64,000 bases of DNA, from assembly GCA_003220535.1 (NCBI GenBank), contig QHSU01000077.1, forward strand, positions 1 through 64,000. The letters run 5' to 3'. The notes beneath the pieces are model-generated. The model had not been told where the DNA came from. It was given only the letters and a program-made list of their open reading frames with translations, and searched no databases. This stretch comes from Candidatus Rokuibacteriota bacterium. Lineage in GTDB: Bacteria > Methylomirabilota > Methylomirabilia > Rokubacteriales > CSP1-6. Made by a program: the position numbers and the translations under genes. Below, one piece after another: positions 10,926 to 33,941 of the stretch (its first letter is position 1; each line of letters begins with the position of its first letter).

Positions 10926-11360
10926 TCATGCGAGTCGCCTCTCAAGCCTGGGCGACCGCCCATCTGACAGCGCATGGTGCACCGCTTCCACGACCTCGCG
11001 GATGCTGTAAGGCTCTCCGAAGACGATCTCGATCACGCCTGAAGCTCCCACTGCCGCGTCCAGCGCCTTCTTGTCGGTGGTGGTGAGAATCCAGGTCCTC
11101 TTCCTCAGGACGTCGGTTTGCTGCAGGAGCCGAAGGAAGTTCCAGTGCCTCTCGAAGGGGCGGGGAAGGTCGTACACGATGACCCACGGGTCATGCGCTT
11201 CCAGGAAGGCCACGAGATCCAGCGTGCCGTCCTGGATCTCGGCCAAGAGCGCCGTGGCGCTCGGCAAACCCTCGCGATCGAGAGCCGCGCGGAGGCCATC
11301 GATGACCTCCGCGCGGGAGTTGAAGATCGCCACGGGCGTCCGCGTCGTCGGACGGGACAT
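10926..11360 (-). CDS. receiver-like protein, probably degenerate
   Basis: A 144-residue protein that follows the receiver fold in outline (VAIFNSRAEVIDGLRAAL, then VIVYDLPRPF, ILTTTDKKALD and IVFGEPYSIREVV) but lacks the acidic pair after beta 1 and the conserved Lys. The Asp of VYDLP aligns with the phospho-acceptor site. It probably acts as a pseudo-receiver that binds a partner, not as a phosphorelay element. It precedes an intact receiver gene in the same operon. Start ATG 11360. Confidence 0.7.
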   Translation of the reverse strand: MSRPTTRTPVAIFNSRAEVIDGLRAALDREGLPSATALLAEIQDGTLDLVAFLEAHDPWVIVYDLPRPFERHWNFLRLLQQTDVLRKRTWILTTTDKKALDAAVGASGVIEIVFGEPYSIREVVEAVHHALSDGRSPRLERRLA

Positions 11361-11653
11361 GTCGACCGTACCCTTCTCGCTGAGTCTGGGGCGCAGTCTC
11401 AGGGCCCGAGCCGTGGCAGCCAGGCCTGCCAGGGCGAGTTAGAACGATCCAGCGACTACAGGAGCGGCCTGCGGGGAGCCGTCCGGGAAGCGGGCGGTGC
11501 ACCTCACTGCACCTCGCGACGTGCGGTCGCAACGTTCAAGCCGGCGCGCCGTTCGAGGATCCCGCCCCGGAGGCACGTCCCCAACTTGTAACTAGGCACA
11601 GGGTGGACCCCAGATAGGCAGGGTGTCAACATATATAAATTCTATCAAGAATA
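11361..11653. other. intergenic region with AT-rich island
   Basis: Lies upstream of the receiver pair and downstream of ppk. Most of it is ordinary GC-rich sequence, but about 11622-11660 is strikingly AT-rich (CATATATAAATTCTATCAAG), with ATTCT/AGAAT as a short inverted repeat. Read on the minus strand this could hold the promoter of the 11360 gene (TTGATA and TTGACA occur). No promoter can be assigned with certainty. Confidence 0.4.
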
Positions 11654-17545: not shown

Positions 17546-17821
17546 ATGTTTGAGCACATCGTGCAAATGGGTCCAATGCTCGTTCTCGCCGGCCTCATGG
17601 CCGGGTGGGTGGCTGAGGCCGCCTCACGCGCGGGCGGCTATGGGTTCATTCTCGATATGGTTCTCGGTCTCATCGGGAGTGTGGTCGGGGGAGCGATCGT
17701 CTGGGTCTTGATCTCCCGCGACATGGGGATGGTGGCGACGTTGCTGATCGGATGCTGCGGCGCAGCGCTCGCGATCGTCGCTCATCGGCGGCTATGGCGC
17801 TCGGCGCTACTCGGAGCGTGA
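17546..17821 (+). CDS. GlsB/YeaQ/YmgE-type small membrane protein, second copy
   Basis: A 91-residue protein with three hydrophobic segments (about residues 8-25, 38-58 and 63-80) and a helix-loop pattern similar to the 15777-16046 product. ATG 17546 is chosen because AAGGAGG lies eight bases before it; the GTG three codons earlier is part of that ribosome site. Sequence identity with the other copy is low but layout and length agree. It closes the cluster of small genes that starts at 16154. Confidence 0.75.
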   Translation: MFEHIVQMGPMLVLAGLMAGWVAEAASRAGGYGFILDMVLGLIGSVVGGAIVWVLISRDMGMVATLLIGCCGAALAIVAHRRLWRSALLGA

Positions 17822-29568: not shown

Positions 29569-31737
29569 ATGCGGTGCCCTCACTGCCGGCACGAGACACG
29601 CGAACGCGCGCGCTTCTGCGGGGCGTGCGGGGCCTCGCTCGAGAGCAGCATCGCCTGCCCGCGCTGCGCGGCCCTGAACCCGCGGGGCCAGAAGTTTTGC
29701 GATACCTGCGGCGAGTCGCTCTCGCCGGGCGTCGGCGCGCCCGCGACGCCGCGCGAGGCGCGCGCCTACACCCCGCGGCACCTCGCCGAGAAGATCCTCA
29801 CCACCCGCGGCGCCCTCGAAGGGGAGCGCAAGCAGGTGAGCGTGCTCTTCGCCGACCTGGTCGATTCCATGCGACTCGCCGAGGGCCTCGACCCCGAGGA
29901 CTGGCATCGCATGCTCGATCGCGTCTTCGAGATCCTCGCCGCGGGTGTTCACCGATTCGAGGGCACGATCAACCAGTTCACGGGTGACGGCGTGATGGCG
30001 CTGTTCGGGGCTCCCGTCGCCCACGAGGACCACGCCCGGCGTGCCTGCCACGCCGCCCTCTCGGCGATGGACGAGCTTCGCAGCTACGCGAGCACGCTCC
30101 GCGCCGATGGGCTCGAGCTCTGTGTCCGAATGGGCATCAACTCGGGCGAGGTGGTGGTCGGCAAGATCGGGGACGACCTCCGCATGGATTACACCGCCCA
30201 GGGACACTGCGTGGGCCTCGCGGCGCGCATGGAGCAATTGGCCGCTCCGGACACGGTGCTTGTCACCGAGACCACGGCTCGGCTGGTCGAGGGGTTCTTC
30301 GCTCTCGCGGACGTCGGCGTTCGGCCGATGAAAGGGGTGAGCGCTCCGATCCGGGCCTTCGAGCTGCGCGGGATCGGGCCTTCACGCACACGGCTCGACG
30401 CCTCGGGTCTGCGCGGTCTCTCCCGCCTGATCGGACGGGACACGGAGCTCACCTGGCTCGACGGTATCCTCTCGCGCTCGATCGAGTCGAACGGGCAAGT
30501 CGTCGGCGTGGTCGGTGAGGCCGGCGTCGGCAAGAGCCGGCTGTGCCTCGAGTTCATCCGGCGCTGTCGCGCCCGTGAGGTGGCGGTGTACGAAGTCCAT
30601 TGCCCGGCCCATGGCGCGACGGTTCCGTGGCTCGCCGTCCGCGACCTCCTGCGCAGCTACCTCGGGCTCGCCCACGGCGACGGGGTCGAGGCGATTCGGC
30701 GGAGCGTCGCGGACCAGCTCCGCGCTCTCGACGCGGGTTTCGCGGACGCGGTTCCTCTGGTCCTCGACGTCCTCGGCGTCAGCGATGCCGTCACCCCGGG
30801 CCAGTCCGCGGCGGGGATCGCCGGCCAGCTCGCGACCTTCGTGCGACGCTTCGTTCGCCTGCAGGGCATGCGCCAGCCAGGGCTGGTGCTTCTCGACGAC
30901 GCGCATTGGATGGATCCCGCGAGCGGCGAGCTGATTCGAGAGATCGCGGGGACGGTGCGCGGGACGCGGACGCTGCTGCTCGCGAACTTTCGACCCGAGT
31001 ACCGACCGGCGTGGATCGGAGGATCCCACTACCATCAGCTCGTGCTCTCTCCCCTTGGCGACGAAGCCATCCGCGAGCTGCTGCAAGACCTTCTTGGATC
31101 GGACAGCTCGCTCGGCGAGCTCTCCGCTCGTATTCTCGAGCGCACCGGCGGGAACCCGTTCTTCACCGAAGAGGTGGTGCAGGCGTTGGCGGCGTCCGGG
31201 AGCCTCATCGGGGAGCGCGGCGCGTATCGTTTGACGGCGCCGATCGATGCGCTCGCGCTTCCCGCGACCGTGCAGGCACTCCTCGCCGCCCGCATCGATC
31301 GACTCGGCGAACCCGCGAAGCACCTCCTGGAAGCCGCGGCGGTCATTGGCAAGCAGTTCGACGAGCCGCTCCTCCGAGAGGTCAGCGGCCTCGTCGACAC
31401 TCATGATCTCGACGCGGCTCTCGGCACGCTCCAGGAGGAGGAGTTCGTCCGCCTGGTCACGTTCGCCCCGCTCCCGGAGTATGCGTTCAAGCATCCGCTG
31501 ATGCGCGACGTGGCGTACCGGGCGCAGCTCGGCGAGCGCCGTGCCCGGCTGCACGCCGCGGTGGCCACAGCCCTGGAGAAGCTGCGGGCGGATCGGCTCG
31601 GCGAATACGCGTCACTCATCGCGCACCACTGGGAAGCGTCGGGAATGCGATTCGAGGCTGCTCGCTGGACGCGCCGTGCCGCGCTGAAGGTCGCGAACAT
31701 CAAGGTCAAGCGCCAGGGCCGGCGGCTACCCCCCTAG
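29569..31737 (+). CDS. zinc-ribbon, class III cyclase and AAA-type ATPase signalling protein
   Basis: A 722-residue protein. Two zinc ribbons open it (CPHC..CGAC, CPRC..CDTC, residues 3-50). A class III cyclase domain follows at about 85-265 (VLFADLVDSMRLAEGL; NQFTGDGVMALFGAPVAHED). Next comes an AAA/STAND ATPase module at about 285-600 with Walker A GEAGVGKSRL, Walker B LVLLDDAHWMD, and helical repeats (NPFFTEEVVQALAAS). Relatives often continue with several hundred residues of TPRs; this one stops after a basic tail, so it looks short. GGAG precedes the ATG. A hairpin overlaps its stop codon. Confidence 0.9.
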   Translation: MRCPHCRHETRERARFCGACGASLESSIACPRCAALNPRGQKFCDTCGESLSPGVGAPATPREARAYTPRHLAEKILTTRGALEGERKQVSVLFADLVDSMRLAEGLDPEDWHRMLDRVFEILAAGVHRFEGTINQFTGDGVMALFGAPVAHEDHARRACHAALSAMDELRSYASTLRADGLELCVRMGINSGEVVVGKIGDDLRMDYTAQGHCVGLAARMEQLAAPDTVLVTETTARLVEGFFALADVGVRPMKGVSAPIRAFELRGIGPSRTRLDASGLRGLSRLIGRDTELTWLDGILSRSIESNGQVVGVVGEAGVGKSRLCLEFIRRCRAREVAVYEVHCPAHGATVPWLAVRDLLRSYLGLAHGDGVEAIRRSVADQLRALDAGFADAVPLVLDVLGVSDAVTPGQSAAGIAGQLATFVRRFVRLQGMRQPGLVLLDDAHWMDPASGELIREIAGTVRGTRTLLLANFRPEYRPAWIGGSHYHQLVLSPLGDEAIRELLQDLLGSDSSLGELSARILERTGGNPFFTEEVVQALAASGSLIGERGAYRLTAPIDALALPATVQALLAARIDRLGEPAKHLLEAAAVIGKQFDEPLLREVSGLVDTHDLDAALGTLQEEEFVRLVTFAPLPEYAFKHPLMRDVAYRAQLGERRARLHAAVATALEKLRADRLGEYASLIAHHWEASGMRFEAARWTRRAALKVANIKVKRQGRRLPP

Positions 31738-31842: not shown

Positions 31843-32838
31843 ATGGGCCTTGCTGAGAGCCTCCAGCTGCTCGAGCGGTACAGCGTCGTGATTCTCCCGG
31901 CGCTGGTCATCGCCGAGCAGGTCGGGGTTCCCCTGCCGGCGGTGCCGGCCCTCCTCGCAGTCGGCGCGCTCGCGGCGAGCGGACGCGCCAGCATCCCGCT
32001 CGTGCTGGGCGCGATCGCGGTGGTCGCCCTCACGGTGGACCTCGGCTGGTACGAGCTCGGCCGGCGCCGTGGCGTGGGCGTGCTGGCGCGTCTCTGTCGT
32101 CTGTCCCTCGAGCCAGACTGGTGCGTGCGGCGGACCGAGAACGTCTTCGCCCGCTATGGGGTCCGCGGCATGCTCATCGCGAAGTTCGTTCCCGGCCTGA
32201 CGACGGTCATGCCGCCGCTGGCCGGCATCTTCGCGGTGGGGCGCCTGCGATTCGCCGTCTACGAGCTCGTCGGGGTGCTGCTCTGGGCGGGTATCTGGAT
32301 GGGACTGGGCTACGCCTTCACCGACGCGATCTCGCTGATCGTGGCCCGTCTCGAGCGAATCGAACGCACGCTGGGTCTCGTCGTCGTGACCGGAGTGATC
32401 GGCTACATCCTGGTGAAGTACCTGCGCCGGCGGCACGTTCTCCGCGCGCTTCGGATCGCCCGCATCTCGGCGGAAGCGCTCAAGCAACGGCTCGACGCGG
32501 GCGAGGACGTCACGATCATCGACCTCAGGACGCGGCTCGATGTGGCGGCCACGCCGTACGCGATCCCGGGGAGCCGCTGGATGGCGACCAACGAGATCGA
32601 CGAGCACCAATCGGAGTTTCTCCGATCTCGAGAGCTGGTGCTCTACTGCTCCTGACCCAACGAAGCCACGAGCGCCCGGGTGGCGCTCCAGCTCAGGCGT
32701 CGGGGGATCGCGCGAGTGCATCCGCTGCAGGGTGGCCTGGCCGGCTGGATGGCCCTGGACTTCCCCGTTCAGGAGCTCCAGCTACCCGAGACCCGGGAGC
32801 CCACGAGCCGACAAACGGCCGGGACCACTCGTCGGTAG
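31843..32838 (+). CDS. DedA-family membrane protein fused to rhodanese domain, predicted selenoprotein
   Basis: I annotate this through an in-frame TGA at 32653-32655 as a 331-residue protein. Residues 1-200 are a DedA/SNARE-associated membrane domain (EQVGVPLPAVPALLAVGALA; AKFVPGLTTVMPPLAGIFAV). Residues about 210-320 are a rhodanese domain (DVTIIDLRTRLDVAATPYAI). The TGA is codon 271 in the active-site loop, C-S-(UGA)-P-N-E-A-T-S, where I recall relatives having Cys. After it the frame stays open and rhodanese-like (ARVALQLRRRG, VHPLQGGLAGWMALDFPV) to TAG 32838. A perfect hairpin lies 21 bases after the UGA at loop level. Selenocysteine is the best explanation; a fresh nonsense mutation is the alternative. 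Sulfur or selenium transfer or redox at the membrane is the likely role. Confidence 0.75.
32670..32688 (+). promoter_or_regulatory. SECIS-like hairpin after UGA of DedA-rhodanese gene
   Basis: GAGCGCC-CGGGU-GGCGCUC: seven perfect pairs and a five-base loop with G at its second position. The loop starts 22 bases after the UGA, inside the 16-37 base window used for bacterial SECIS searches. An outer GAGCTGG (32632-32638) could also pair with CCAGCTC (32688-32694) around the UGA. There is no bulged U as in E. coli fdhF. Confidence 0.6.
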
Positions 32839-32856: not shown

Positions 32857-33528
32857 CTAGATCGCGCCGGCGGCGATGTTGACGGTCAGGGCGAGCAGTG
32901 CGGCGTTGAACAGGAAGGACACGACACCGTGGGCGGCCACCGTGCGGCGGATCTGCTTGCTGGTGACCGCCACGTCGGAGACCTGCGACGTCATCCCGAT
33001 GACGAACGAGAAGTAGACGAAGTCCCAGTAATCCGGGTGCGCGTCGCCGCCCGGAAACGCCATGCCGCCGCCGGCGGCCTCGTCGTAGAACTCGTGAGCG
33101 TAGTGCAGCGCGAAGATCATGTGGATGAACGCCCAGGACAGCACGATGGTCAGCGTGGCCAGCACGAGATGGCTCGGCGGTCGGGACGCGCCGACGGCGG
33201 ACGTGCCGAGCTCGGCGAAGATGGCGCCGACGCTCGCCAGCGCCGCGGCCACGGTGAGCCCCAGCATCGCGAGCTGTCCCTCGTCCTGCAGCGCGGCGCG
33301 CCGGCGGATGCGGCGGACGTCGGCGCCCACCATCATGTGGAACGCGAGCGCCAGATAGAGCGCGACGGCGACGTCCCAGCCGACGAGCAGGCGAGTCGCG
33401 AGCCTCCAGTCCGTCACGAAGACCGCCGCCACGGTCACGACGACACCGACGCCTCCCGAAGCGAAGAGTCGGGGCCGGGCCCCCACGATGCGCACCAGGA
33501 ACGGCCGACGGCGAGTGCTGGGACTCAC
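32857..33528 (-). CDS. DUF1345 family membrane protein
   Basis: A 223-residue inner-membrane protein of the DUF1345 family. Diagnostic segments are LVGWDVAVALYLALAFHMMV, FALHYAHEFYDEAAGGGMAF and DYWDFVYFSFVIGMTSQVSD. About five to six membrane helices; the FVIGMTSQVSDV stretch resembles an ion-channel-like loop, but the function is not established. I choose GTG 33528 because it overlaps the TGA of the upstream gene (GTGA); an ATG 24 bases earlier is possible. Confidence 0.85.
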   Translation of the reverse strand: MSPSTRRRPFLVRIVGARPRLFASGGVGVVVTVAAVFVTDWRLATRLLVGWDVAVALYLALAFHMMVGADVRRIRRRAALQDEGQLAMLGLTVAAALASVGAIFAELGTSAVGASRPPSHLVLATLTIVLSWAFIHMIFALHYAHEFYDEAAGGGMAFPGGDAHPDYWDFVYFSFVIGMTSQVSDVAVTSKQIRRTVAAHGVVSFLFNAALLALTVNIAAGAI

Positions 33529-33941
33529 GGAAACCGGCGCACCATCGCGCACATCGCGCCGACGTACGCTTTCGTGGTCGGATCACGCAGCTCGAAGACC
33601 GTCCGTCCGTACAACGCGCCCAGGCCGTCGGCGCTCTTCACGTAGCCGATCCGGTAGCCGGGCCGTCCGCGGAACTCGGCGCCGTGGATCTTGACGCTGG
33701 CCCCGGCCACGTTCACGCGACGGACGGTCCAGAACTCGTGCTCCGCCTCGGTCCCGTGATGCTCCGTCTCGACCGGGCGCACGGTCAACGTCGCCAACTC
33801 GATCCTGATGTCCGTGCGTTCGAGCGGCAGGGGACGCGGCTCGCCGATGCTCATCTGGACGTCCGCGATGCAGTAGAACCATTCGACGCGCGGCGGTGCA
33901 TCCTCCGGACCGGAGCTCGGGATCTGTTGAAAGCAACGCAC
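33525..33941 (-). CDS. hypothetical protein between arsR and DUF1345 genes
   Basis: An unrecognised protein of about 138 residues, beta-rich (IRIELATLTVRPVETEHHGT; TVFELRDPTTKAYVGAMCAM). The start is unsettled: GTG 33941 is the first listed start, but the frame stays open for about 90 bases upstream, overlapping the 3' end of the arsR frame near an eight-T run at 34032-34040. The gene is coupled to the DUF1345 gene by a GTGA overlap. If the T-run hides an indel, both gene boundaries would move. Confidence 0.5.
   Translation of the reverse strand: MRCFQQIPSSGPEDAPPRVEWFYCIADVQMSIGEPRPLPLERTDIRIELATLTVRPVETEHHGTEAEHEFWTVRRVNVAGASVKIHGAEFRGRPGYRIGYVKSADGLGALYGRTVFELRDPTTKAYVGAMCAMVRRFP

Follow-up and report, generated by a model that had tools for sequence, protein, structure and literature searches.

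The DedA-rhodanese locus

The gene described here lies in a stretch of 64,000 nucleotides (the window) of contig QHSU01000077.1, from a Candidatus Rokuibacteriota assembly (GCA_003220535.1). It encodes a DedA-type membrane domain followed by a C-terminal rhodanese domain (Table 1). A first-pass annotation of the same DNA had described an otherwise intact DedA-rhodanese gene interrupted by a lone TGA and continuing in frame for 60 residues, and this is borne out by the translation, which has exactly one internal stop and runs through those 60 residues to a TAG. The TGA falls in the active loop of the rhodanese, which reads Y-C269-S-U271-P-N-E when the codon is taken as selenocysteine (Sec, U). 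Annotation that ends the gene at the UGA would truncate the protein within this loop.

Table 1. Features of the DedA-rhodanese gene (positions are those of the window)
Feature	Position	Strand	Basis
Predicted DedA-rhodanese selenoprotein gene, UGA read as Sec	31843..32838	+	Translation; 331 residues, then TAG; single in-frame TGA
Predicted Sec codon UGA, residue 271	32653..32655	+	Same site in phylum relatives
DedA/VTT membrane domain, residues 32-157	31936..32313	+	Pfam VTT_dom
Rhodanese domain, residues 209-304	32467..32754	+	Pfam PF00581; AlphaFold model with Foldseek rhodanese matches
Cys85, first of DedA-domain pair (C-X8-C)	32095..32097	+	Present in 49/49 Sec copies; changed in 5/6 Sec-lacking relatives
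Cys94, second of DedA-domain pair	32122..32124	+	Present in 49/49 Sec copies; changed in 4/6 Sec-lacking relatives
Cys269, invariant cysteine of the loop (C of C-x-U)	32647..32649	+	52/52 aligned rows
SECIS-like hairpin	32670..32688	+	Stem 32670-32676/32682-32688, loop CGGGT 32677-32681; inner six pairs conserved

The rhodanese domain is recognised by PF00581 with 37.1 bits (gathering cut-off 22.2), and the VTT/DedA match (PF09335) scores 31.3 bits, just short of the gathering cut-off of 33.9. VTT was found at E<=0.001 in all 46 fusions scanned, of the 51 from the phylum (best 5.2e-19). NF041203 was likewise matched by 46/46 fusions scanned, of the 51. For the C-terminal part of the window protein it is the NCBIfam model with the highest score (84.1 bits, E 5.9e-24), a value below the curated cut-off of 115 bits, which none of nine genomes of the genus reaches. 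The NCBIfam UptA model gives 35.2 bits (E 1.3e-8) against a curated cut-off of 250.

An AlphaFold model built on a 46-row alignment has a mean pLDDT of 88.0 and a pTM of 0.77. When it was compared with PDB folds the best matches were rhodaneses, and among the best 50 of 233 matches most titles named a rhodanese or sulfurtransferase and none was a DedA structure. In two phmmer alignments to 6mxv, residue 271 lines up with the loop cysteine; the Y-C at the strand end would favour C269 as the canonical residue instead. The loop bearing Cys85 and Cys94 and the linker preceding the rhodanese are both rich in arginine.

Upstream on the same strand (29569-31737) lies a gene for a zinc-ribbon and cyclase/AAA-like protein, named by eye, whose cluster recurs at 3 of 52 loci. 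A convergent gene at 32857-33552, also named by eye, encodes a membrane protein. Elsewhere in the window ARAGORN reports two unusually long tRNA genes, at 11067-11161 and 17591-17687 (Gly-TCC and Val-CAC), one of which overlaps a script-picked gene (11118-11591) and so may be false.

Conservation of the UGA site

Relatives were sought in 95 genomes of the phylum, 37 of which gave matches at E<=1e-20. Two of the 58 initial rows were removed as duplicates (L064 and L065, of L089 and L090) and four more were excluded as having no residue at the loop (L077, L118, L119 and L024), leaving 52 rows, namely 51 DedA fusions and one protease fusion. UGA occupies exactly the same site in 49 of the 51 DedA fusions, the window gene included, and these come from 33 genomes. 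The remaining two carry Ser (L095) and Glu (L082), and both are nested within UGA clades in the tree. Two full-length paralogues in the same genome as the window gene (L002 and L003) have one TGA each, at the same place in the loop.

Outside the phylum the site is cysteine, in 15/15 Pseudomonadota fusions fetched and in one rhodanese protein from Granulicella. Of 25 plasmid records with a match, 17 were fetched: the 15 fusions, one rhodanese, and one DedA protein lacking a rhodanese. The statement in the first-pass annotation that relatives carry Cys at this place is supported by the alignment of homologues, in which the residue is UGA (49/51 in the phylum) or Cys (15/15 in Pseudomonadota). 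In a contig scan with the window protein the nearest relatives, at 89 and 86% identity, came from two metagenome assemblies of Candidatus Rokuibacteriota, and the other matches were two remote Rhizobacter rhodaneses. A tblastn search of collections other than those of phages and E. coli found no viral relatives of the rhodanese part.

The codons past the UGA remain under coding constraint, as the earlier remark that the sequence there shows no decay had implied. Thirteen pairs give a dN/dS of 0 to 0.37 over the next 41 codons, compared with 0.15 to 0.39 upstream. For the 30 codons past the hairpin, 12 pairs lie between 0 and 0.38, and the pair L105/L103, with three changes in all, has 0.73. 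A conserved in-frame UGA aligned with Cys elsewhere, one of the features by which bacterial selenoproteins are recognised, is therefore present at this site.

UGA could also have been reassigned to another amino acid by a changed code, or have arisen by sequencing error. Nothing was found in support of either, roughly one in two of the genes picked in the window has TGA as its stop, and the site recurs in 33 assemblies with Cys in its place in 15/15 Pseudomonadota fusions; we regard both explanations as extremely improbable.

A SECIS-like hairpin downstream of the UGA

A perfect hairpin with a 7-bp stem (GAGCGCC/GGCGCTC) and a 5-base loop follows the UGA, as first annotated. It had been placed 22 bases after the UGA, and this distance needs correction: the stem begins at 32670, 14 bases on, and what starts 22 bases past the UGA, with 21 bases between, is the loop. 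The loop starts 21 nt after the UGA here compared with about 20-21 nt at seven selD loci, that of the same genome included (printed fold, by eye).

The hairpin was compared across 50 UGA copies, made up of the 49 DedA fusions and a protease fusion from the same genome (L027, see below). Conservation does not extend to the outermost of the seven pairs, which is unpaired in 30/50. The inner six-pair stem is complete in 47/50, with five pairs in two copies and four in one, and in none of 16 Cys forms (15 from Pseudomonadota plus Granulicella), two of which have 5/6 pairs. Loss of the hairpin in relatives that keep the UGA, which had been named beforehand as evidence against a selenoprotein, is thus not what is seen. 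The complete inner stem is also missing from all seven Ser-form protease paralogues. The Ser copy among the DedA fusions (L095), whose TCA is one base away from TGA, retains the stem in full, as expected of a recent loss, and the Glu copy L082 has 5/6 pairs.

Codon choice was assessed in 108 conserved codon columns of the 51 DedA fusions. Measured against the family's own usage, the four strongest synonymous biases fall at codons +6, +9, +8 and +7 past the UGA, and +10 ranks sixth; the most codon-constrained positions are those of the hairpin.

At one inner pair both bases have changed: 48 sequences have C-G there and two have G-C. Double changes occur in 3/7 pairs, which 0/500 column shuffles match. 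Covariation is nevertheless weak as proof, because the stem hardly varies and shuffles reach the covariation score in 53/500 cases and the share of paired cells in 237/500. Nor can the hairpin stand as proof by itself. Of the TGAs in the window, 144 are flanked by at least 60 open codons in both directions, and 12 of these are followed at a similar distance by a perfect stem of at least 6 bp and three (3/144) by one of at least 7 bp. It is more than a chance stem because it is conserved among relatives, and the codon bias together with the control offered by the Cys forms carry the case for a putative SECIS element. Comparison of relatives thus places a SECIS-like hairpin just past the UGA, a further feature by which bacterial selenoproteins are recognised.

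These observations also bear on whether the TGA is a real stop, produced by a nonsense mutation or ending a functional truncated protein. Such a stop would be ordinary in the window, where TGA ends 22 of 44 other genes picked by a rough ORF script (23/45 with this frame), and the 270-residue product would contain the entire DedA domain. The identical UGA in 49 copies from 33 genomes, the constraint downstream of it and the tie between the complete stem and the UGA forms make this very unlikely. By comparison of sequences, residue 271 is almost certainly selenocysteine.

Selenocysteine machinery

The earlier suggestion to look for selA, selB, selC and selD in the same genome led to all four. 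There is a tRNA-Sec with anticodon UCA (69.8 bits), a SelB (354 bits), a selA frame beside selB that was named by eye from its translation, and a selD that itself contains a UGA. This selD (L030, C1:110596-111537) is a UGA gene with the motif CAG-UGA-ASK, which is also present at selD in 6/6 other genomes read.

Among the 33 genomes with UGA copies SelB was found in 31, and among the 62 others in 53. Since it is so common in the phylum (84/95 genomes), its presence does not discriminate and is a matter of consistency rather than proof, and presence or absence of SelB and SelC within the phylum is uninformative as a test. Under stricter filters tRNA-Sec was found in 25/33 genomes with UGA copies. 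Two genomes, G055 and G087, have UGA copies and a UGA-containing selD and neither selB nor selC; selA is partial in G055 and was not found in G087. Our guess is that gaps in these assemblies account for the missing selB and selC.

The same rhodanese module on a protease

A second candidate selenoprotein fusion is encoded in the same genome, on contig C132 (L027:4311-5804, minus strand). Its 498-residue frame begins with a signal-like start and continues with a trypsin-like peptidase (Trypsin_2, 88.9 bits), a repeat-like region, a transmembrane-like stretch and a rhodanese domain. The loop reads YCT-UGA-PDEATSARVAL, with the UGA at the equivalent position of the rhodanese and the same hairpin after it. 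A homologue in genome G053 (L175) has the same layout and 5/6 stem pairs, and in G051 (L165) the UGA loop is present and the upstream frame is interrupted.

Serine (AGC) stands at the Sec site in 7/7 protease-rhodanese paralogues, one from the same genome (L007, contig C60) and six from other genomes of the genus (L168 and L170-L174). These Ser forms carry a further C-terminal segment that resembles, by eye, a cyclic-nucleotide-binding domain.

Loss of DedA cysteines together with Sec

The DedA domain has two cysteines, C85 and C94 (C-X8-C), in its Arg-rich loop, and both are kept in 49/49 Sec copies. Six relatives lack Sec, through the change to Ser (L095) or Glu (L082) or through loss of the rhodanese or its loop (L077, L118, L135 and L143). 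All six have lost C85 (5/6) and/or C94 (4/6), three of them both. For loss of one or both cysteines in these six against the 49 Sec copies, Fisher's test gives p 3.4e-8 with no correction for kinship, and on the tree there were at least four separate losses. The count excludes L119 and L134, which are cut by contig ends and keep both cysteines. A single assembly, G053 (9% contamination), supplies four of the six Sec-lacking copies, and four of the six are truncated, so that the co-loss may in part reflect general decay.

The losses centre on these two cysteines. Conservation in at least 48 of the 49 Sec copies marks out 24 DedA columns, and 18 of these never change in the six Sec-lacking copies. 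Among the remaining conserved columns three change once and G106 changes three times. On the strength of this repeated co-loss, the Sec loop and the DedA cysteine pair are probably coupled, as far as sequence comparison can tell.

The pair also occurs apart from Sec. A C-X8-C pair is kept in 7/14 DedA proteins with no visible fused rhodanese (L004, L136, L137, L138, L140, L141 and L156, with L137 running into a contig end), and therefore does not need a fused rhodanese. Conversely, 3/15 Pseudomonadota fusions, all from Paraburkholderia (L126, L154 and L155), have the CxC loop without the DedA pair. Neighbouring frames were noted for two of these proteins. L138 (G018:C99) is followed by short glutaredoxin-like (PGUMFC) and AhpD-like (CQYU) frames, both with an in-frame UGA, and L004, on contig C108 of the same genome as the window gene, is followed by a frame that looks DoxX-like by eye.

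No conserved operon was seen across 52 loci. The widest neighbour cluster, of an SDR-like gene, is present at 9/52, and OsmC-like and thioredoxin-reductase-like genes at three each (by eye).

A possible redox link between rhodanese and transporter

We propose that the protein is a membrane selenoprotein in which exchange between C269/U271 and Cys85/Cys94 sets the redox state of the DedA domain and probably governs transport as well, a reading that we consider reasonably likely. SelB and tRNA-Sec would decode UGA 271 as Sec, directed by the hairpin just downstream, to give a DedA-type transporter bearing a C-terminal rhodanese with a Cys-x-Sec loop. The rhodanese is probably cytosolic, because the Cys85/Cys94 loop and the linker preceding the rhodanese are Arg-rich. 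Thiol/selenol or persulfide exchange could then take place between the C269/U271 and Cys85/Cys94 pairs, and would set the redox state of the latter and probably the activity of the transporter. A thiol relay of this kind suggests itself because the Sec-lacking relatives lost C85 and/or C94 while 18/24 conserved DedA columns stayed unchanged. We infer the chemistry of the exchange, its direction and the transported substrate. On this reading, the co-loss of Sec and the DedA cysteines would offer a testable answer to what the rhodanese is for, namely that it works on the transporter itself.

That the rhodanese loop actually gates the transporter is a more tentative idea. If true, a cytosolic redox-switch rhodanese would exchange electrons, or sulfane sulfur or selenium, with the DedA cysteine pair and so gate transport. 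Equally speculative is the wider suggestion of a selenium-based redox switch in a lipid-carrier or ion transporter, with the same Sec cassette on a TM-anchored protease pointing to a reusable membrane redox module of the phylum.

The rhodanese might instead act alone, as a membrane-tethered enzyme of sulfur or selenium transfer or of persulfide reduction, with a real Sec and with DedA serving mainly as an anchor. The cysteine pair would then be an old trait of DedA proteins that decays once the protein is no longer needed. This fits the occurrence of the same UGA rhodanese on an unrelated membrane anchor (the trypsin-like protease with its TM-like stretch), the persistence of the pair in half of the DedA proteins without a visible rhodanese, and the lack of a conserved operon partner at the 52 loci. 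It fits less well with losses in the Sec-lacking copies that focus on C85 and C94 and leave 18/24 conserved columns untouched, and conservation of those columns in 48-49 of 49 Sec copies is not what one would expect of a mere anchor. We consider it possible, if rather unlikely.

A role in selenium assimilation is improbable. In this reading selenite or a sulfur oxyanion would enter through DedA, to be received or reduced by the Sec rhodanese. The title of Ledgham 2005 ties DedA to selenite resistance, and a review takes DedA mutants of Ralstonia metallidurans as indicating a role in selenite uptake (PMC11422209). A Cys-form DedA-rhodanese is encoded on a replicon of Cupriavidus metallidurans CH34. 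Against this, no sel gene was recognised by eye among the neighbour clusters common to at least 3/52 loci, and COG0586 DedA proteins have been argued to be putative undecaprenyl-phosphate flippases (PMC10127716).

Comparison with known selenoproteins and DedA fusions

The gene had been put forward as a probable new selenoprotein. The selenoprotein reading is upheld, and the novelty is partial, as both CxU rhodaneses and Cys-type DedA-rhodanese fusions are already known. The CxU rhodanese is a catalogued selenoprotein form (form 3, NF041203; table of PMC13188914). Fusions of DedA with rhodanese have been described for COG0586, where the link between rhodanese and undecaprenyl phosphate is called unclear (PMC10127716), and PA1209 is a DedA-rhodanese (PMC12893004); the passages concerned in the two papers do not mention selenium. 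Literature searches returned no Sec form of the DedA-rhodanese fusion, and in the literature searched no paper joined selenoprotein, rhodanese and DedA, or selenoprotein, rhodanese and HtrA. A term search for DedA gave nothing in the texts of PMC13188914, PMC9312934, PMC1088965, PMC2398784 and PMC12013277. PMC13188914 mentions, from Deng et al. 2026, a Methylomirabilota assembly for which 63 selenoprotein genes are predicted, and that set may include the DedA-rhodanese Sec family. The predicted Sec forms would add transporter-rhodanese and protease-rhodanese fusions to the architectures of selenoproteins.

TsoB (NF045694, rhodanese/DsbD fusion-like) is, judging by its name, a rhodanese selenoprotein with a membrane-protein-like part. 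The window protein scores 12.4 bits against it (cut-off 805), and the catalogue table gives the TsoB motif as UxxxxU (PMC13188914). The COG0586 proteins, whose putative flippase role is taken from PMC10127716, have the VTT/DedA domain in common with the window protein, whereas the UptA score of the latter is only 35 where 250 is required.

Cys-form fusions annotated as DedA family protein/thiosulfate sulfurtransferase GlpE have the same order of domains, about 30-38% identity and, in 12/15 fetched, the C-X8-C pair, but carry Cys for Sec and have no complete SECIS-like stem. The rhodanese-related (seleno)protein LYCAU of NF041203 shares the C-x-U loop within a rhodanese domain. It differs in that here the rhodanese forms the C-terminal portion of a membrane protein of the DedA type, the loop is mostly C-S/T-U-P and the score of 84.1 falls below 115. 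The Sec DedA-rhodanese is thus a new architecture of a known kind of selenoprotein.
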